A stretch of 64,000 bases of DNA from an uncultured Bacteroidaceae bacterium (GTDB taxonomy: Bacteria; Bacteroidota; Bacteroidia; Bacteroidales; Bacteroidaceae). Numbering within the stretch: the first letter of the stretch is position 1; every line of letters begins with the position of its first letter. The notes beneath the pieces were generated by a model. It had not been told where the DNA came from. It saw only the letters and a program-made list of their open reading frames with translations, and made no database searches. The stretch is taken from contig CAJOGQ010000026.1 of assembly GCA_905234125.1 (NCBI GenBank), positions 1 through 64,000 on the forward strand. Direction: 5' to 3'. Made by a program: the position numbers and the translations under genes. Positions 19,646-63,541 of this stretch are shown in pieces.

Positions 19646-21051
<1,406 letters not shown>

Positions 21052-21075: not shown

Positions 21076-23724
21076 ATGAAACGAATCGCATTGCTTTCTC
21101 TGATATGCCTTGTAGCCCTTGGCGGTTGGGCACAACGTAAAACCAGTCTCGATGCTGGATGGAAATTCCATCGTGGAGATGTGATAGACGCTGAGTCGCC
21201 TGAGTTTGACGACTCCAAATGGCGCACCCTCATCGTGCCTCACGATTTCAGTATGGAGCCAGCGTTCGATCCCTCCGATGAGCGTCAGCGCTTCGCCAAC
21301 TGGTCTGACATGCAGGTGGGGCCATTCTCTCGACTGAGTGTCGGCAACTGGGACAACGCTCAGACCGTTGGAGGTACGGGCTGGTATCGCAAGACCTTCC
21401 GACTGCCCATCCAGGGCAATGCCTCTTTGGAGACCTTCCTGTCGCAGACGAACGTGAACATCCGCTTCGATGGCGTTTACAATCAGGCAGAAGTATGGGT
21501 GAACGGCGTGAAGACCGCTACGAACGTATATGGCTACATGCCTTTCGTGGTGAACCTCAACAAGGTGCTGATGGACAAGACACATCGCCACGACGACAAC
21601 GAGCGGATGGTCACCGTGGTGGTGAAGGCAATTAACGAAGGGCTGAACTCCCGTTGGTATGCAGGCAGTGGCATCTTCCGTCATGTGTGGATGGAGACGA
21701 CCGATAAACTGCACCTCGACGAGTGGGACACCTTTGTGGATGGCTCCGAGCTCATCAACAAAGGCAAGGATGCCAATGTGAAAGTGTTTGCGAAGGTGTT
21801 CAACGAAGATGCTCATGGTGCTTTCGGACAGCTTTGTGTCGATATTCTCGATGCCGAAGGAAATGTGGTGGCGCAGGGGGAGCAGGAGTTTGAAGTGGGC
21901 GGTTCTCTGGCCAAGGGCATGGATGTGGCGACGGAGCTGACGGTAAAAGCGCCCAAGCTTTGGTCGGTCGAGACACCTTATCTCTACACAGCCAAGGTCT
22001 ATCTCCTCAAGTCGGGCGAAGAGAAGGATGCGCTTCACATCCCCTTCGGCATTCGCACCATCCAGTTCTCGGCCGAGACGGGCTTCCTGCTGAACGGCAA
22101 GCCCACCAAACTCTATGGTGGTTGTGTGCATCACGACAACGGCCTCTTGGGAGCGGCAGGCATCGACCGTGCTGAGGTGCGCAAGGCCGAATTGCTGAAG
22201 GCGCAGGGCTATAATGCTGTCAGATGCAGTCACAACCTGCCGACGGAGGCCTTCCTGAATGCTTGCGACAGTCTGGGTCTGTTGGTCATCGACGAGGTGT
22301 TTGACCAGTGGGAGGAGTCCAAGCGTGCCAACGACTACAGCCAGTACTTCACTCGCGACCACAACAAAGACATGGCGCTGATGGTGCGTCGCGACCGCAA
22401 TCACCCGTCCATCATCATGTGGAGCATCGGCAATGAGATTGCCCAGCGTTCCGACCTCCCTCGGGGTAAGGAGATTGCCCTCGAACTCAATCTGATGGCC
22501 AACCAGAACGATGGCACGCGTCCCACGACGATGGCAGTCAATTCTTTCTGGGATCGCCAGGCTCAGCACTTCACATGGGAGAAGAACTCCCCCGATGCCT
22601 TTGCCAACATCGAGATTGGTGGCTACAACTATGAGTGGAAGCATTATGAGGCCGACCACGATTCCTTCCCTGACCGCATCATGTACGGCTCCGAGTCCGT
22701 TCCCAAGGAGATGGCGCAGAATTGGAACTTGGTGGACAAGCACCCCTACATCATTGGCGATTTCGTCTGGACTGCCGTCGATTATCTGGGTGAAGCAGGT
22801 TTGGGACATGTGTATGAGCGTTCCGACGACCGTTGGATTCAACTCCTTTCCTGGCCTTGGTTCAATGCCTGGTGTGGCGACCTCGACATCATTGGTGACA
22901 AGAAACCTCAGAGTTACTATCGCGATGTGCTTTGGCGTCGCAGCAAACTCGCCATGGCCGTGCGTCCTGCCGTGCCCGAAGGAGAGCACGAAGACGTGAG
23001 CTTCTGGGGATGGACAGCCGAAGAGAACCACTGGAACTGGGCACCCTCCACTCCCAACTCTCAACTCTCAACTGTCAACTCTCAACTGTCAACTCCCCAC
23101 TACCTTCCCTTCGAGCTTCGTCCCGAAAACTACCAGACGGCGAATGTGGTAGGCAATCTCCAGCACAATCCCAATGCCCATCGTCAGGACTCACTCCGAG
23201 TGAATGTATATAGCCGTGAGCCCCGTGTGCAGCTGCTCATCAACGATTCCATCATGGGCGAGAAGGAGACTGACCCAGAGACCTACACGGCCACCTTCAC
23301 CGTGGCCTACGAGCCCGGTTCGCTCAAGGCCGTCACCGTTCCGCAGGCGAAGAAGGCCAAGCCCGACTCTCTGGAGTTCGTCACCGCCTTGGCTCCTGCC
23401 CGCATCGTCCTCAAGGCCGACCGCGACACCATCTCCTCGTCCCACAACGACCTCTCCTATATATATATATGTATAGAAGATGAAGAGGGGCACCTCTGTC
23501 CCACGGCTGAGATTCCTGTCGAAATCTCCTTCACAGGCCAGGCGACCGTCGTGGCAGGCACAGGCCATCCCTACGACATGCACTCCTTCCGTTCCCTCCG
23601 TCCCACCACCTTCCGTGGCAAGGCGCTCGCCATCGTCCAACCGCAGGACGCCAAGGGTCAAGTCACCCTCACCGTGAAAGCCAAGGGGTTAGACACCGGA
23701 CAAGTGACGATAGAAATGAGGTGA
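21076..23724 (+). CDS. GH2 glycoside hydrolase (beta-galactosidase-like)
   Basis: This 882-residue protein has a signal peptide (MKRIALLSLICLVALGGWAQ) and GH2 architecture: sugar-binding jelly roll (KTSLDAGWKFHRGDV, about 20-220), an immunoglobulin-like domain, and a TIM barrel with GYNAVRCSHNLPTEAFLNAC and MWSIGNEIAQRS, whose Glu is the acid/base. The likely nucleophile is the Glu in MYGSESVPKEMA. C-terminal beta domains follow. It probably removes beta-linked galactose or a related sugar in the periplasm or at the surface. Around residues 660-674 a NSQLSTVNSQLSTP linker, encoded by a 7-bp tract, separates the barrel from the C-terminal domains. Confidence 0.85.
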   Translation: MKRIALLSLICLVALGGWAQRKTSLDAGWKFHRGDVIDAESPEFDDSKWRTLIVPHDFSMEPAFDPSDERQRFANWSDMQVGPFSRLSVGNWDNAQTVGGTGWYRKTFRLPIQGNASLETFLSQTNVNIRFDGVYNQAEVWVNGVKTATNVYGYMPFVVNLNKVLMDKTHRHDDNERMVTVVVKAINEGLNSRWYAGSGIFRHVWMETTDKLHLDEWDTFVDGSELINKGKDANVKVFAKVFNEDAHGAFGQLCVDILDAEGNVVAQGEQEFEVGGSLAKGMDVATELTVKAPKLWSVETPYLYTAKVYLLKSGEEKDALHIPFGIRTIQFSAETGFLLNGKPTKLYGGCVHHDNGLLGAAGIDRAEVRKAELLKAQGYNAVRCSHNLPTEAFLNACDSLGLLVIDEVFDQWEESKRANDYSQYFTRDHNKDMALMVRRDRNHPSIIMWSIGNEIAQRSDLPRGKEIALELNLMANQNDGTRPTTMAVNSFWDRQAQHFTWEKNSPDAFANIEIGGYNYEWKHYEADHDSFPDRIMYGSESVPKEMAQNWNLVDKHPYIIGDFVWTAVDYLGEAGLGHVYERSDDRWIQLLSWPWFNAWCGDLDIIGDKKPQSYYRDVLWRRSKLAMAVRPAVPEGEHEDVSFWGWTAEENHWNWAPSTPNSQLSTVNSQLSTPHYLPFELRPENYQTANVVGNLQHNPNAHRQDSLRVNVYSREPRVQLLINDSIMGEKETDPETYTATFTVAYEPGSLKAVTVPQAKKAKPDSLEFVTALAPARIVLKADRDTISSSHNDLSYIYICIEDEEGHLCPTAEIPVEISFTGQATVVAGTGHPYDMHSFRSLRPTTFRGKALAIVQPQDAKGQVTLTVKAKGLDTGQVTIEMR
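23053..23094. repeat. six-unit 7-bp repeat inside the GH2 gene
   Basis: Units cccaact, ctcaact, ctcaact, gtcaact, ctcaact, gtcaact. Same unit as in the UPF0210 gene, in frame, at a domain boundary. Confidence 0.85.
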
Positions 23725-30937: not shown

Positions 30938-31553
30938 ATGAAAAAGAACTTTTTGAGCCTTGCTGTCATGGTTGCAGCACTCACATTCGCATTGCCATCA
31001 CAGGCACAAGTTAAATTCGGTATCAAGGAATGTTGACAACATCAGTCTGAAGGATATGAAGGCCAACGTCAGCGCCAAGAACCAGACTGGTTTCTTTGCT
31101 GGTGTCACTGCAGATGTGACCATTCCACTCGCCGGCCTTGGGGCTGATGTTGCCCTCCTTTATGACAACAAGGTCATTGGTGTGAAGGAAAACGGCGAAG
31201 AAGCCAACAAGACACTCCACTACATTGATTTGCCCATCAATGCAAAATACACCATCGGGTTCAGCACCTTGGTCAGCGCATATATTGCTACAGGTCCTCA
31301 ATTCTCTTGGAACATTGGTGACAGAAATTGGCGTCCTGCCAACATCGATCAGGATTGGGAGCTGAAGAAGTCTGAGTTCTCTTGGAATGTAGGATGCGGT
31401 GTGACTGCCCTCAAGCATGTTCGCGTAGGTTACAACTTCAACATCGCCTTTGGCAAGACGGCAGAAATGACCTACACTGACGCGGCAGGCAAGATTGTGA
31501 AGGGTAAGCTCAGAAACAACACCCATCAGATTTCTCTCACTTATCTGTTCTGA
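30938..31553 (+). pseudogene. outer-membrane beta-barrel protein (PorT-like), frameshifted
   Basis: The ATG at 30938 encodes MKKNFLSLAVMVAALTFALP, a normal signal peptide, then VKFGIKEC and a stop at 31034-31036. The family sequence continues in another frame as NVDNISLKDMKANVSAKNQT to the end at 31553 (LRNNTHQISLTYLF). Homologues read FGIKxGLNVDNIS, so about eight bases appear to be missing near 31028. The track ORF at 30960 uses a nonsense N-terminus and would lack a signal peptide. The promoter and the rest of the barrel are intact, so either the mutation is recent or it is a sequence error. priA starts at the last base of its stop codon. Confidence 0.75.
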
Positions 31554-33607
31554 TGTTTGCTGACATCACACTCCCCATACCATTCGACAGCTTCACATAC
31601 CTCGTTCCCTCCGACATGGAGTCTCGAGTGATGCGAGGCTGTCGAGTTGTTGTGTCCCTTGGCAAGAACAAGATCTATACGGGTGTGGTGTTACGTACTC
31701 ACGACAAAGCCCCAGAAGGGGTGGAGATCAAGCCTATCTTAGAGGTGCTGGATGAACACCCTGTGGTGAACGAGCAGCAGTTCGCTTTCTGGCAATGGAT
31801 TGCCAACTATTATCTTTGTCCCTTGGGCGACGTGATGAAGGCTGGATTGCCTGGAGCCATGAAACCCAAGGATGAGAAGGCGCTGAAGGAGTCCAGTCGC
31901 AAAAGAAAGGGGAAAGGAGCAGGGGACATGGAGCAAGAGGACACCCCAAGTTCCAACATTTCTCTTGCCTCCAGCTCCTTGCCCCTTGCCCCATTCTCTC
32001 CCGCTCAACAAACAGCCATGAACAGCATTGAAGAGGCGTTCCTCACCAAGAACGTCACCCTCCTTCATGGTGTCACCTCTTCGGGCAAGACCGAAATTTA
32101 TATCCATCTTATTGATAAGTACTTGCGTCAAGGCAAGCAGGTGCTTTATCTTCTCCCCGAAATTGCTCTGACCACCCAAATCACAGAACGTCTCCGACGG
32201 GTGTTTGGCGACAGCATGGGGGTCTATCATTCCAAATTCACCGATGCCCAACGCCTCGATGTTTACAAACGTCAAGCCTCTTCCTTGCCTTACCAACTGA
32301 TTCTGGGCGTTCGTTCCAGCATCTTCCTGCCCTTCCAAAACCTCGGACTCGTCATTGTCGATGAGGAGCATGAGCAGAGTTACAAGCAACAGGAACCAGC
32401 TCCACGTTACCATGCCCGCAATGCTGGCATTATGTTGGCGCACATGTTCAAGGCCAAAACCTTGTTGGGCACAGCAACACCTTCTTTTGAGGTCTATCAT
32501 CTGGCACACAAGAATCGTTATGGTTACGTGCGACTCACCCAACGTTTCCGTGATATGCAACTGCCTACGATTGAGGTGGTGGACACCAAAGAAGCCAAAC
32601 GCAAGAAGCAGATGAAAGGAGCCTTCTCACCCCGTCTCATCGAAGCGATGAAGGAAGCCCTCGAACGGAAAGAGCAAATCATCCTCTTCCAGAATCGTCG
32701 TGGCTTCTCCTCGTTCATCGAGTGCAAGACCTGCGGATGGGTGCCCCGTTGTCCGCATTGCGATGTCACCTTAACCCTCCACAAGAAGACCTCCACGCTC
32801 ACTTGCCATTATTGTGGTTACACGGCTCATATCCCTGAACGCTGTCCCGCCTGCGAGGAGAACAAATTCATGGACATCGGCACGGGCACAGAGAAGATTG
32901 AGGAGCAAATCGCCCAAATCTTCCCAGAGGCGACCACCCTGCGCATGGATCTCGACACAACCAAGACGCGTGGTCAGTACGAGCGCATCATCAACGACTT
33001 CTCCACCCATCAAGCCGACATCCTCATTGGCACGCAGATGGTCACCAAAGGGTTGGACTTCGACCATGTGTCAGTCGTGGGCATTCTTGATGCCGACACC
33101 ATGCTCAACCTGCCAGACTTCCGTAGTTATGAGCGCACCTTCCAAACGCTGAGTCAGGTGGCAGGTCGTGCTGGTCGCAACAACACGGCCGGACTGGTCA
33201 TCCTCCAGACTCGTTCAGCCGACAGCGACATCATCCGCCAAATCACCCAAAATGACTACTGGCAGATGTTCTATGCCCAGATGACGGAGCGCCAACTCTT
33301 CCACTATCCCCCCTTCCGCCGACTCATCTATGTCTATCTGCGCCACAAGGACGACCATCTGTTGGAACACTTGGCCGATGAGATGGCACAACGTCTGCGT
33401 GCAGTCTTTGGCGACCGTGTGCTGGGTCCCGACCGACCTCCCATTGCACGAATCCAATCCCTTTACATTCGCAAAATCATGCTCAAGATGGAGTTGCAGG
33501 CCTCTGCGGACAAGGTGCGTCAAACCCTGATTGCTATCCAGCAGCAGATGCTCTCCTTGCCCATCGCCAAAAACCTCAATATCTATTACGACGTTGACCC
33601 GCTATAG
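31553..33607 (+). CDS. priA: primosomal protein N' (replication restart helicase), shortened
   Basis: The 684 residues have the PriA 3'-DNA-binding domain (1-105), Walker A GVTSSGKT (173-180), DEEHEQSYKQ, the zinc-binding cysteine cluster (CKTCGWVPRCPHCDVT, CHYCGYTAHIPERCPACE) and the late helicase motifs (GTQMVTKGLDF, QVAGRAGR). It restarts stalled forks and loads the replicative helicase. Between residues 105 and 150, where Bacteroidales homologues have a winged-helix and linker region of well over 100 residues, there is only a low-complexity stretch (SRKRKGKGAGDMEQED and SLASSSLPLAP) encoded by two 7-bp tracts. This may be a deletion sealed by repeat sequence. Confidence 0.93.
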   Translation: MFADITLPIPFDSFTYLVPSDMESRVMRGCRVVVSLGKNKIYTGVVLRTHDKAPEGVEIKPILEVLDEHPVVNEQQFAFWQWIANYYLCPLGDVMKAGLPGAMKPKDEKALKESSRKRKGKGAGDMEQEDTPSSNISLASSSLPLAPFSPAQQTAMNSIEEAFLTKNVTLLHGVTSSGKTEIYIHLIDKYLRQGKQVLYLLPEIALTTQITERLRRVFGDSMGVYHSKFTDAQRLDVYKRQASSLPYQLILGVRSSIFLPFQNLGLVIVDEEHEQSYKQQEPAPRYHARNAGIMLAHMFKAKTLLGTATPSFEVYHLAHKNRYGYVRLTQRFRDMQLPTIEVVDTKEAKRKKQMKGAFSPRLIEAMKEALERKEQIILFQNRRGFSSFIECKTCGWVPRCPHCDVTLTLHKKTSTLTCHYCGYTAHIPERCPACEENKFMDIGTGTEKIEEQIAQIFPEATTLRMDLDTTKTRGQYERIINDFSTHQADILIGTQMVTKGLDFDHVSVVGILDADTMLNLPDFRSYERTFQTLSQVAGRAGRNNTAGLVILQTRSADSDIIRQITQNDYWQMFYAQMTERQLFHYPPFRRLIYVYLRHKDDHLLEHLADEMAQRLRAVFGDRVLGPDRPPIARIQSLYIRKIMLKMELQASADKVRQTLIAIQQQMLSLPIAKNLNIYYDVDPL
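31906..31940. repeat. five-unit 7-bp-period tract inside priA (purine-rich)
   Basis: Units aaagggg, aaaggag, cagggga, catggag, caagagg encode the basic-to-acidic linker. Confidence 0.7.
31965..31992. repeat. four-unit 7-bp-period tract inside priA (pyrimidine-rich)
   Basis: Units ttgcctc, cagctcc, ttgcccc, ttgcccc encode LASSSLPLAP. The complement of the upstream tract resembles this one, so the two form a loose inverted pair. Confidence 0.75.
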
Positions 33608-43768: not shown

Positions 43769-44521
43769 ATGCAGGAGACGCTTCGAGGCATTGTTTTGCG
43801 GACGGTGAAGTATGGCGACAATTCACTGATTGTTGATCTCTTCACGGAGAATCATGGACGCCAGTCGTTCATGACCTCCATAACGCGTGCCAAGCGTTCC
43901 GTCAGGAGCGTGTCGTTCTGGCAACCCCTGTCGATGGTGGAGTTCAGCACGGAATTGAAACCCAATGCAGGGAAACTCCCTCGTCCCAACGATGTGCGCA
44001 CCTATTATAATTATACCGACCTGCCCTTCTCGCCCATCAAGTCCACTTTGGCACTCTTCCTCTCCGAGTTTCTCTGTGCCAGCCTGCGCGAGGAGAAGGA
44101 GAACCAACTCCTCTACCACTATATCGAGTCCTCCCTCCAGTGGCTCGATTTGGCCAGCGAACCAACCTCCATCGCCAACTTCCATCTCGCCTTCCTCATG
44201 CACCTCAGCCGTTTTATCGGCATCTATCCCAACTTAGACTTGAACTCTCAACTGTCAACTGTCAACTGTCAACTCTATTTCGACCTTCTCGCTGGCACTT
44301 ATTGTGACCATCGCCCCTCCCATCCCCATTTTCTCCAAGGACAAGAAGCACAAAACCTTCCCACCCTTTTCCGCATGAACTATCCCACCATGCACCTCTT
44401 CCGACTCTCCCGTCGCGAACGCCAACGCATCCTCCAAGTCCTCAACACCTACTACCGTCTCCACGTCCCCCAATTCCCAGAACTCAAATCCTTGGAGGTC
44501 TTACAGGAGTTCTATTCATGA
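43769..44521 (+). CDS. recO: DNA repair protein RecO with heptad insert
   Basis: The start at 43769 (MQETLRGIVLRTVKYGDNSL) follows the promoter; the track start lies at the -33 box. The 250 residues have the N-terminal OB fold (VLRTVKYGDNSLIVDLFTEN) and the helical C-terminal domain, and assist RecA loading in the RecFOR pathway. Around residue 158-168 the sequence LNSQLSTVNCQL is encoded by five 7-bp units and interrupts the helical domain in frame. The zinc-finger cysteines seen in some RecO proteins are absent. Confidence 0.88.
   Translation: MQETLRGIVLRTVKYGDNSLIVDLFTENHGRQSFMTSITRAKRSVRSVSFWQPLSMVEFSTELKPNAGKLPRPNDVRTYYNYTDLPFSPIKSTLALFLSEFLCASLREEKENQLLYHYIESSLQWLDLASEPTSIANFHLAFLMHLSRFIGIYPNLDLNSQLSTVNCQLYFDLLAGTYCDHRPSHPHFLQGQEAQNLPTLFRMNYPTMHLFRLSRRERQRILQVLNTYYRLHVPQFPELKSLEVLQEFYS
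44240..44274. repeat. five-unit 7-bp repeat inside recO
   Basis: Units ttgaact, ctcaact, gtcaact, gtcaact, gtcaact; same unit family as in the UPF0210 and GH2 genes. Confidence 0.85.
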
Positions 44522-52204: not shown

Positions 52205-53788
52205 TTAGAATTGGAAATAGATGAAGGGCTGGACATCGGAGGACTTGATTTGGATGACCACCCAAACGAGGAGAACGATGAGGAGTGCCTTGACAACCAA
52301 AGGACTGCGAGTGACGAGTGTCTTGGCCTTGTCGGAGAGGAACTCAGGCGTGAAATGGAGCACATAGCCCAAGAGCATCAGGAAGGCAACAGCCTTGTAG
52401 GAGGTACACCACTGGAGGAAAATCTGGGGCTCAAACTTGAACCAAATCTGATGGAAGACCTGCTCAGCAATGCCGAAGGAAGGAGCACGGAAGAGTACCC
52501 ACAGGGCAGCGACAAGGTGGAAGGTCAGCAAACCACCGATAAGAGTTGAGAGTTGAGAGTTGAAAGTTGAGAGTTTCGGGTTGGGGTTATGCTTGCTCGG
52601 CAAATAGGTAAGCGGACTGATGGCGGGGAAGATGGTGTGCCATATCTTGTCGAGACAGAGGAGGAGTCCGTGGATGCCACCCCAAAGGATGAAATTGAGA
52701 GAGGCTCCATGCCAGAGTCCACCCAGGAGCATCGTCATGAGGAGATTGAAGTACTGACGGATTTTTCCGTGGCGATTGCCTCCAAGAGAGATGTAGAGGT
52801 AGTCCTTGAGCCAAGAGGAGAGGCTAATGTGCCAACGGCGCCAAAACTCAGTAATGGACTTGGACTTGTAGGGGCTGTCAAAGTTCTTGGGAAACTGGAA
52901 TCCGAGCAGGAGGGCAATACCGATGGCCATGTCAGAATAGCCTGAGAAGTCGCAATAGATCTGGAGGGTGTAGCCATAGACGGCGAGGAGGTTCTCAAGT
53001 CCGCTGTAGAGGTCAGGCTGGTCGAAGATGCGCTCGACAAAGTTGATGGAGATGTAATCAGAAATAACAGCCTTCTTGAAGAGTCCGGCGATAATGAGGA
53101 ATACGCCCGTACCAAACATCTGGTCGGAGACGAAGAGGGGACGACGTATCTGTGGAATGAAATCGCGAGCCCGGACGATAGGGCCTGCCACGAGCTGTGG
53201 GAAGAAACTGACATAGAAAGCGTAGTCGAGCAAACGGTTCAGGGGTTTGATATTGCCTCGATAGACATCAATGGTATAGCTGAGCGACTGAAAGGTGAAG
53301 AACGAAATGCCGACGGGTAGGAAGATGTCTCGCGGTTGCCATACAACGCTCTGAAGATAAGAGCCACTGATGGCAGATGGCACGTGAACGCCACAATTGG
53401 TGAGAAGCGTGCAGATGGTTTCTCCAAGGAAATTGGTGTATTTGAAGAAGACGAGCAAGCCGAGGTCGAGGACAAGGGACAGAACCACGAGCGTCTTTCC
53501 CAAAGTGCCCTTCCCTACTCCACCAATGGCTCGTGCGATGAAGTAGTCGGAGGTGGTGACAAGTGCCAAAAGCCAGAAGAAGAAACCGCTGGACTTGTAG
53601 TAGAAATAATAGGAGAAAAGGGTGACGAACAAGATTCGGAGCGTATCAGCCTTTCCCAAACAATTGTAGATGAGCGTGAATCCTAAGAATAAGAACAAGA
53701 AGATGCCCGACGAGAAAATCATCGGGGAATCTGGCTGATAGAGCAGTTGTTCAATGAGTCGCGAGAAATCTATGTCAAACATTTTCAA
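52205..53788 (-). CDS. MBOAT-family O-acyltransferase (AlgI-like)
   Basis: The 527-residue protein has 11-12 membrane segments and the MBOAT core: FSGYSDMAIGIALLLGFQFP, FWRRWHISLSSWLKDYLYIS and LLGGLWHGASLNFILWGGIH, whose His is the catalytic residue of the family. It moves acyl groups across the membrane for O-acetylation of an extracytoplasmic glycan. Two SGNH proteins lie directly upstream on the same strand, as in AlgI/AlgJ- and PatA/PatB-like systems. Around residues 405-418 a LSTFNSQLSTLIG loop is encoded by a 7-bp tract. Confidence 0.9.
   Translation of the reverse strand: MKMFDIDFSRLIEQLLYQPDSPMIFSSGIFLFLFLGFTLIYNCLGKADTLRILFVTLFSYYFYYKSSGFFFWLLALVTTSDYFIARAIGGVGKGTLGKTLVVLSLVLDLGLLVFFKYTNFLGETICTLLTNCGVHVPSAISGSYLQSVVWQPRDIFLPVGISFFTFQSLSYTIDVYRGNIKPLNRLLDYAFYVSFFPQLVAGPIVRARDFIPQIRRPLFVSDQMFGTGVFLIIAGLFKKAVISDYISINFVERIFDQPDLYSGLENLLAVYGYTLQIYCDFSGYSDMAIGIALLLGFQFPKNFDSPYKSKSITEFWRRWHISLSSWLKDYLYISLGGNRHGKIRQYFNLLMTMLLGGLWHGASLNFILWGGIHGLLLCLDKIWHTIFPAISPLTYLPSKHNPNPKLSTFNSQLSTLIGGLLTFHLVAALWVLFRAPSFGIAEQVFHQIWFKFEPQIFLQWCTSYKAVAFLMLLGYVLHFTPEFLSDKAKTLVTRSPLVVKALLIVLLVWVVIQIKSSDVQPFIYFQF
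52543..52577. repeat. five-unit 7-bp repeat inside the MBOAT gene
   Basis: Plus-strand units agagttg, agagttg, agagttg, aaagttg, agagttt, equal to the CTCAACT family on the coding strand; they lie in a loop between two membrane segments. Confidence 0.85.
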
Positions 53789-61033: not shown

Positions 61034-63541
61034 TTATATATTCGCAATGCTCATGATGTCGGCAAACACGCCAGCAGCGGTCACTTGGGCACCAGCGCCG
61101 TAGCCCTGGATGAGCATGGGATATTGGTTGTAGCGTTCAGTCGTGATGAGGATGATGTTGTTCGAACCTTCGAGGTCATAGAACGGATGGTGCTCACCCA
61201 CACGTTGCAGGGACACGCTTCCCTTTCCGTCCTCCAGTTTGGCCACAAACTTCCAATGTTCGTTGGCGGCCTCCACCTCCTGACGTTCCTTCTCAAACTG
61301 GGCGTCGAGCGTGGGCAGGTTCTTCCAGAAGTCATCGAGCGTGCCTTCGAAGAACGACTGGGGGATGAAGAGGGTCTTCTCCACGTCCTCCTGATTCATC
61401 TTATAGCCAGCCTCGCGAGAGAGGATGACGAGTTTCCTCACCACATCCTTGCCGCTGAGGTCGATGCGTGGGTCGGGTTCGCTGTAGCCCTCTTCCTTCG
61501 CACGGCGGACGGTCTCGCTGAAGGGCACATCAGCCGAGATGGTGTTGAAGATGAAGTTGAGCGTGCCACTCAGCACGGCCTCCAGCTTCAGAATCTTGTC
61601 GCCCGAATTGATGAGGTCGTTGATGGTGTTGATGATGGGCAGACCTGCGCCGACGTTCGTCTCGAAGAGATACTTCACGCCACGCTTTCGAGCCGTCGCC
61701 TTCAGTTTGGCGTAGTTGTCGTAGTCGCTCGATGCAGCCACCTTGTTCGCAGCCACCACCGATATGTTGTTGCTCAGCAGTTCCTCATACAGGCCTGCCA
61801 CTTCGGCGCTGGCCGTGCAATCCACAAACACGCTGTTGAAGATGTTCATGCCGATGACCTCATCCTTCAGACGCTTCGTGTTGCTGGATGGAGCTTCCTT
61901 CAGACGCTCACGCAGTCTCTTGATGGAGAACTCGCCGCATGGGGCTTCCCCCTCTCGGGGGGATAGGAGGGGGGCTTCCAGGTCGATGCCGTTCCTGTCG
62001 AACATCGCGTTGTGTCCGCTGGCGATGCCCACCACGTTGATTTGCAGGTTGCGCTCCTTCATCAGCTTCTGACGCTGACCGGCTATCTGCTCCAAGAGGC
62101 TTCCACCCACCGTTCCGACACCACACAGGAACACGTTCAGCACCTGATATTCCGACAGGAAGAACGAGTCGTGAATCACGTTCAGCGACTTCCGCAGACT
62201 CTTCCTCTCCACCACAAACGAGATGTTCGTCTCGCTCGCGCCCTGGGCACAGGCGATGACGCTGATACCGTTCCTTCCCAATGTGCCGAACAGCTTGCCC
62301 GCGATGCCCGGCGTATGCTTCATATTCTCACCCACGATGGCCACCGTCGCCAAGTCGCGTTCCAGTTTCATCTTATACATGGCGCCCATCTCGATTTCCT
62401 TGGCGAACTCCTGATTCAGCACCTCGCAAGCACGGTCAGCATCGTTGTCCGTCACGCCGATAGACGTGCTGTTCTCCGACGAAGCCTGGCTCACCATAAA
62501 CACGCTGATGCCGTTCTCAGCCAGCGTCGTGAAGATGCGCCGGTTCACACCAATCACACCCACCATCGACAGACCGCTCACCGTAATCAGGCTCGTGTTG
62601 TTGATGGACGAGATGCCCTTGATAGCCCTTCCATTATCGTCGGCTTCCTCCAGATTCGTGATGATCGTTCCCTTATCCTCCGGACGGAACGTGTTCTTGA
62701 TGAGGATGGGGATGTTCTTGATGCAGACAGGATAAATCGTAGGCGGATAAACCACCTTCGCACCGAAGTTGCACAGCTCCGTCGCCTCCACATACGAAAG
62801 TCTTTCGATGGGGTACGCCGTGTTGATCACCCTCGGGTCAGCTGTCATGAAGCCCGACACATCCGTCCAGATCTCCAGCACATCGGCATCCAGCGCAGCC
62901 GCCAGAATCGCCGCCGTGTAGTCCGAACCGCCACGACCCAAGTTCGTCACCTCGCCCGTCACACTATCCGTCGAGATGAATCCGCCACAAACGGCCACTG
63001 GCTCCTTGCCCCCTGCTCCTTGATCCTTAAATGCCTCCTTGATTAGCGGCAAGCTGATGGTGTTGCTGAACAGGTTCCGTCCTTGCTTATGCTTCGTCTT
63101 GATGAACTCCAACGAATTGTACCACTTGGCACCCTCGATGAGCGTTGCCACGATGTGGGAGCTGATGCGCTCGCCATACGACACAATCGCGTTGCTCGTC
63201 TTCTCGCTCAGGTCGCCAATCAGGAAGACGCCCTGATAGATACTCTTCAGCTGACCCAGCAGTTCATCCACCGTGGTCAGGAGCGCCTTCTTCTTCTCCG
63301 TGTCTGTGATGATTGCGTCAATCATCTGGTGGTGACGCTCCACCATCTCGTCATAAGCCGACACATACGCCGCATCGCCAGCCACCGCCAGTTTCGACGT
63401 GCCAATCAGCTTGTCCGTGATGCCGCCCAAAGCCGACACCACCACAATCACAGGTTCCTCCTGCGATTCCACAATTCTCTTCAAGTTCAGGATGCTCTCC
63501 ACAGAACCCACCGAGGTTCCGCCAAACTTCAATACCTTCAT
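61034..63541 (-). CDS. thrA: bifunctional aspartokinase / homoserine dehydrogenase
   Basis: The 835 residues comprise an aspartokinase (MKVLKFGGTSVGSVESILNL, LGRGGSDYTAAILAAALDAD), two ACT domains (about 310-450) and a homoserine dehydrogenase (VFLCGVGTVGGSLLEQIAGQ near 470, NVGAGLPIINTINDLINSGD). It catalyses steps 1 and 3 from aspartate to homoserine; the ACT domains give threonine feedback. It is about 20 residues longer than usual. Two in-frame stretches are unusual: AFKDQGAGGKEPVAV (7-bp tract) and APLLSPREGEAPCGEF (GC-rich element). Confidence 0.95.
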   Translation of the reverse strand: MKVLKFGGTSVGSVESILNLKRIVESQEEPVIVVVSALGGITDKLIGTSKLAVAGDAAYVSAYDEMVERHHQMIDAIITDTEKKKALLTTVDELLGQLKSIYQGVFLIGDLSEKTSNAIVSYGERISSHIVATLIEGAKWYNSLEFIKTKHKQGRNLFSNTISLPLIKEAFKDQGAGGKEPVAVCGGFISTDSVTGEVTNLGRGGSDYTAAILAAALDADVLEIWTDVSGFMTADPRVINTAYPIERLSYVEATELCNFGAKVVYPPTIYPVCIKNIPILIKNTFRPEDKGTIITNLEEADDNGRAIKGISSINNTSLITVSGLSMVGVIGVNRRIFTTLAENGISVFMVSQASSENSTSIGVTDNDADRACEVLNQEFAKEIEMGAMYKMKLERDLATVAIVGENMKHTPGIAGKLFGTLGRNGISVIACAQGASETNISFVVERKSLRKSLNVIHDSFFLSEYQVLNVFLCGVGTVGGSLLEQIAGQRQKLMKERNLQINVVGIASGHNAMFDRNGIDLEAPLLSPREGEAPCGEFSIKRLRERLKEAPSSNTKRLKDEVIGMNIFNSVFVDCTASAEVAGLYEELLSNNISVVAANKVAASSDYDNYAKLKATARKRGVKYLFETNVGAGLPIINTINDLINSGDKILKLEAVLSGTLNFIFNTISADVPFSETVRRAKEEGYSEPDPRIDLSGKDVVRKLVILSREAGYKMNQEDVEKTLFIPQSFFEGTLDDFWKNLPTLDAQFEKERQEVEAANEHWKFVAKLEDGKGSVSLQRVGEHHPFYDLEGSNNIILITTERYNQYPMLIQGYGAGAQVTAAGVFADIMSIANI
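61944..61982. repeat. GC-rich palindromic element inside thrA
   Basis: GCTTCCCCCTCTCGGGGGG is followed by ATAGGAGGGGGGC; it encodes the APLLSPREGEAP insertion between the Rossmann and the conserved DEVIGMNIFNS region. Confidence 0.75.
62999..63026. repeat. four-unit 7-bp-period tract inside thrA
   Basis: Units tggctcc, ttgcccc, ctgctcc, ttgatcc encode KDQGAGGKEP in the kinase domain. The unit resembles the pyrimidine-rich tract in priA. Confidence 0.7.

Follow-up and report, generated by a model that had tools for sequence, protein, structure and literature searches.

The priA gene analysed here, from an uncultured rumen Bacteroidaceae genus, raises the question of how a PriA protein came to lack its winged-helix (WH) domain, and whether the seven-base repeats lying at the site of the missing domain are the trace of its loss. 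The WH of PriA is regarded as part of stalled-fork recognition, and its deletion reportedly impairs E. coli in vivo, in work attributed to Windgassen and dated 2018. In the initial annotation of the window (the whole stretch of DNA analysed, 64,000 nucleotides), the WH was proposed to have been replaced by a repeat-encoded linker, as if a deletion had been joined by repeat sequence. We favour instead, with a probability of about 0.8, two independent events at one site, namely an old loss of the WH and the later appearance of an in-frame, genome-specific heptad repeat.

The protein carries, in the order known for PriA, the 3'-DNA-binding domain (3'BD), the SF2 helicase core, the cysteine-rich region and the C-terminal domain, as recognised by Pfam, by alignment with E. 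coli PriA and by fold (Table 1). What fails to appear is the WH domain between the 3'BD and the helicase: only ~45 low-complexity residues, against ~190 in long forms, join the 3'BD to the core, which starts at residue ~148, and no Pfam domain was recognised in residues 101-149. Thus, the absence of the WH region noticed initially, together with the short low-complexity stretch after the 3'BD, is real when judged against most of the order. As the WH has been lost repeatedly in the PriA family, we still class the protein as PriA minus one domain. Its overall identity to E. coli PriA is 35%, and the helicase motifs and zinc cysteines are intact in the alignment of the two proteins. A dN/dS of 0.04-0.06 indicates strong purifying selection on the helicase; this value and the intact motifs suggest that the WH-less PriA is functional, including in fork binding and unwinding. 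No second priA was found in this genome, in which the sole other match showed 34% identity over a helicase-motif stretch.

A 16-row structure model of the protein reached a mean pLDDT of 68.5 with the lowest confidence at residues 102-141, and the linker is predicted to be disordered. This model was used in place of a single-sequence AlphaFold model, which was discarded (mean pLDDT 35). The best fold matches were PriA structures, including 6dcr, which is described as an E. coli WH-deletion protein. The protein resembles E. coli PriA and its engineered WH deletion (PDB 6dcr) in the domain order around the gap, the shared zinc cysteines and the helicase motifs; unlike in the engineered protein, the absence of the WH is here natural and lineage-wide. 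Parental duplex DNA is the docking site of the WH in E. coli (PMC10175261).

Table 1. Features of priA and heptad arrays in other ORFs of the window (positions count from the first base of the window; residues are those of PriA).
Feature	Position	Strand	Basis
priA ORF, 684 aa, without WH	31553..33607	+	ORF call; domain and fold matches
3'BD, residues 5-100	31565..31852	+	Pfam PF17764 (PriA_3primeBD)
Interdomain linker, residues 104-148, where long Bacteroidales PriA has the ~190-residue WH region	31862..31996	+	
Purine (GGRGCAA-type) heptad arm of inverted pair	31904..31939	+	
Pyrimidine arm, GGRGCAA-type heptad read on the opposite strand	31962..31997	-	
DEAD helicase domain, residues 150-312	32000..32488	+	Pfam PF00270
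Cysteine-rich zinc region, residues 400-424	32750..32824	+	Pfam PF18319 (Zn_ribbon_PriA); cysteines common to E. coli PriA
Helicase C-terminal domain, residues 467-543	32951..33181	+	Pfam PF00271
PriA C-terminal domain (PriA_C), residues 587-683	33311..33601	+	Pfam PF18074
CTCAACT-type array, DUF711 ORF	20339-20395		
CTCAACT-type array, glycoside hydrolase family 2 ORF	23036-23107		
CTCAACT-type array, RecO ORF	44233-44283		
CTCAACT-type array, MBOAT protein ORF	52529-52588		
GGRGCAA-type array, in frame, bifunctional aspartokinase/homoserine dehydrogenase ORF	62993-63028		

The loss of the WH extends far beyond this species. Long PriAs of Bacteroidales hold about 190 residues, in two parts, between the 3'BD and the helicase, in agreement with the initial expectation of well over 100. 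In members of four genera the second part alone is kept (114-130 residues between the 3'BD and the helicase in all), so that intermediates retaining only the second of the two domains do occur, and the remaining short PriAs have 34-60 residues at this place. The WH region is absent from ~35 of the ~35 PriAs recovered from the genus, with or without heptad tracts, and WH-less PriAs were also found in certain members of five further genera of the family and of four further families. The loss is therefore old, as it is common to the genus and to several other genera irrespective of the tracts. On a PriA tree built from the 3'BD and helicase with the linker excluded, the label 'none' required nine changes, at least seven of them forced by well-supported branches, and Bacteroidales lost the second part (WH2) on no fewer than nine occasions, provided that a lost domain was never regained. 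This number would be smaller if short priA genes had passed from one lineage to another. At the (K/R)(S/A)PKQ stretch the second part can be aligned with the WH of E. coli PriA; the profile support is modest (E 1.8e-4, probability 48%), and the second part may be the counterpart of the E. coli WH. For the first part no known counterpart was found, a profile of the long region giving no significant match among PDB sequences and Pfam. WH-bearing PriA was also sought in viral contigs to deepen the alignment, and none was found.

The two heptad tracts, purine then pyrimidine, are present in the linker as first described, and form an inverted pair with 36-nt arms that are 72% complementary and 22 nt apart. 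The linker DNA shows a lag-7 identity of 0.53, unmatched by any equal-length stretch elsewhere in the gene, and the whole window contains 10 period-7 tracts versus 0-2 at lags 5, 6 and 8-11. The folding energy of the hairpin is unremarkable (z = -1.8), and its stability is not significant as evidence. Directly ahead of the variable part of the linker, much of the genus retains a basic stretch (RKRKG or similar). In the nearest relatives (88-90% identical proteins) the linker is free of the tract, is likewise short and consists of different DNA; that of the present PriA is longer by 11 residues, a net gain of 33 bp. Because this gain is the sole visible change, replacement and insertion are indistinguishable in priA. 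The reading frame stays open across the tract and, given that separately assembled members of the genus are equally short, it is very unlikely that the WH was removed by a collapse in the assembly. A period of 7 built from other units is also seen in some short PriA linkers (L010, L011, L063), and others (L024, L051, L059) hold palindromic repeat sequence instead of heptads, e.g. CATCCCCGCGAAAGCGGGGA in L059; the palindromes in L024 and L059 were recognised by eye.

The unit in priA recurs throughout the genome. We obtained 39 matches to GGGGCAAGGRGCAA in this genome and none for the reversed control, and among 45 genus genomes the sequence was frequent in four (39, 31, 11 and 9 matches), rare in four and absent in 37. 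Tandem seven-base units exceed chance, as in heptameric simple repeats. The sites considered here are a sample from pattern matches rather than a full genome census. Some of them belong to a homogeneous inverted element of ~150 bp whose arms are heptad arrays. The core of this element has 11 matches here, three in a second species, close to contig ends, and none in the other 43 genomes. In this candidate MITE the inverted arms are clear, and direct repeats of ~7-13 bp, putative target-site duplications judged by eye, flank several copies (L095, L098, L103), not all. Intergenic copies of the element in this genome (L095, L098, L103, L109, L110, L111, L115, L116) have outer CTCAACTTTCGCAAG-type ends. 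The priA tract resembles this mobile-looking element: positions 31955-31992 (the right arm and its inner end) agree with the right arm of the element at 35 of 38 bases, a match reached by 0 of 20000 random heptad arrays, and the inner end common to both is not repeat sequence. The agreement of positions 31907-31945 with the left arm is weak (33/39, P 0.02). Since the outer ends of the element are missing in priA, the tract is not a simple transposition of it.

Besides the element copies, 13 of ~18 GGRGCAA arrays, counted by hand from the sampled sites, are in frame within ORFs. Comparison with orthologues showed in-frame inserts in other genes. In all, GGRGCAA lies in frame in about a dozen genes other than priA, including those for RNase HI, SufD, CvfB, an AmgK-like kinase, CbiD (two inserts), an outer-membrane efflux protein, an alpha-L-fucosidase, a DUF3316 protein and an EPSP synthase fragment. 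The SufD orthologues of five close relatives have no insert. Among the AmgK orthologues of five close relatives, two have none and others bear CTCAACT-type arrays, which are also present in the CvfB orthologues of some close relatives. Linkers bearing GGRGCAA here hold other heptads (CTCAACT, GGAATKA) in sister species, often ones abundant in the sisters' own genomes. Thus, the dozen or so additional genes with GGRGCAA and the other heptads at the same linkers in sisters indicate that permissive linkers have been overwritten repeatedly. The four CTCAACT-type arrays in the window (Table 1) are all in the stop-free orientation (LSTLNSQ). We do not claim an enrichment of CTCAACT, as the reversed control matches the identical arrays and is not independent.

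These data bear on the possible origins of the tract. If a single recent deletion had removed the WH and its breakpoint had been joined by or filled with heptad sequence, the position of the tract exactly at the missing domain would be accounted for; however, tract-free relatives are equally short, and GGRGCAA was also inserted in genes that suffered no loss, such as those for SufD and CbiD. We find such a recent deletion scarcely credible, and the single deletion joined by repeat, as initially annotated, is refuted by the equally short, tract-free nearest relatives, the tract being a later and separate change. Alternatively, PriA might have recruited the tract for a function, e.g. as a charged linker taking over the DNA binding of the lost domain, an idea that draws on the basic stretch conserved ahead of the variable part. 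Nevertheless, the variable part changes freely (0.33-0.40 nonsynonymous differences per site versus 0.05-0.11 in the helicase) and the linker is predicted to be disordered, which leaves this role very improbable.

Local slippage deserves somewhat more weight, albeit it too is unlikely. The period of 7 would then have arisen in place from the linker's own sequence, with no copying between loci, and in many bacteria heptamers are indeed more common than any other of the longer simple repeats; slippage has been proposed for them (PMC4679880, PMC4692102). Slippage alone, however, is difficult to reconcile with (i) the recurrence of GGRGCAA at many loci of one genome and its lack in most sisters, (ii) the inner end that the right arm in priA has in common with the genomic element, and (iii) the inverted pairs, which simple slippage does not yield.

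In the two-event reading that we favour, PriA lost the WH region in the ancestry of the genus, leaving a disordered linker between the 3'BD and the core, and later, in this species, most of the variable part of the linker became an in-frame (GGRGCAA)n inverted pair. Being free of stop codons in every frame of both strands, the unit is harmless wherever extra linker length is tolerated. It may have spread via copying between repeat tracts, or via relics of a MITE-like element whose arms consist of heptads. The intergenic element fits such a MITE-like source in being homogeneous, inverted and multicopy; the priA copy departs from it in lacking the outer ends.

In our best reading, genome-specific repeats have colonised the PriA linker, a tolerated site, again and again. 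A parallel is provided by Rickettsia palindromic elements (RPE), which are in-frame selfish palindromes within protein-coding genes (PMC10969869). As with RPE, short inverted elements occur here in many copies per genome and in frame in unrelated genes (PMC10969869), but the arms are heptad arrays and the unit differs between sister species at one site; the likeness that we propose is one in the way of working. Heptameric simple repeats known from Xanthomonas, Nostoc and Beggiatoaceae (GGGAATC, GGGGATT, TAACTGA; PMC4692102, PMC4679880) are similar in their seven-base units, genome-specific abundance and variation between close species. They are described as mostly intergenic, whereas the sampled non-element arrays here are mostly in frame within genes, and many arrays here, unlike those, form inverted pairs.

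The repeated natural loss of the WH within one order provides ready comparisons for the role of the domain. The heptad inserts are repeats whose period is not a multiple of three and that spread inside conserved genes, which is explained by a unit stop-free in any frame, and they bear on how bacterial proteins acquire disordered linkers. They also call for caution, as a low-complexity linker in a genome of this kind may consist of repeat sequence rather than reflect conserved function. Neither the loss of the PriA WH in Bacteroidetes nor heptads in coding linkers of this group turned up in a literature search without most subscription journals.

It is attractive to speculate, and for the moment rather doubtful, that an active process in the genus writes heptad arrays particular to each species, in many cases paired in inverted orientation, into coding linkers that tolerate them. 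The sites would then stay in place as one unit gives way to another, and WH loss in PriA would repeatedly have made such a site. None of the arrays was observed moving. The RNase HI linkers of the genus are instructive in this respect: inverted pairs are made up of GGRGCAA in four of the parsed genomes and of GGAATKA in three, and of the 24 parsed linkers, a set including identical ones from G017, G025 and G156, 10 have period 7 (P <= 0.01) and 11 an inverted match (P <= 0.05). GGRGCAA in this linker tracks its genome-wide abundance (4/4 versus 1/20, P 5e-4), and GGAATKA does so weakly (3/8 versus 0/16, P 0.03), both without correction for relatedness and with abundance thresholds picked post hoc on data already seen. 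The identical RNase HI linkers of G017, G025 and G156 (L139, L164, L165) agree over 144 bases, despite the PriA of G156 not being especially close to those of G017 and G025; transfer, contamination or recent exchange are possible explanations.
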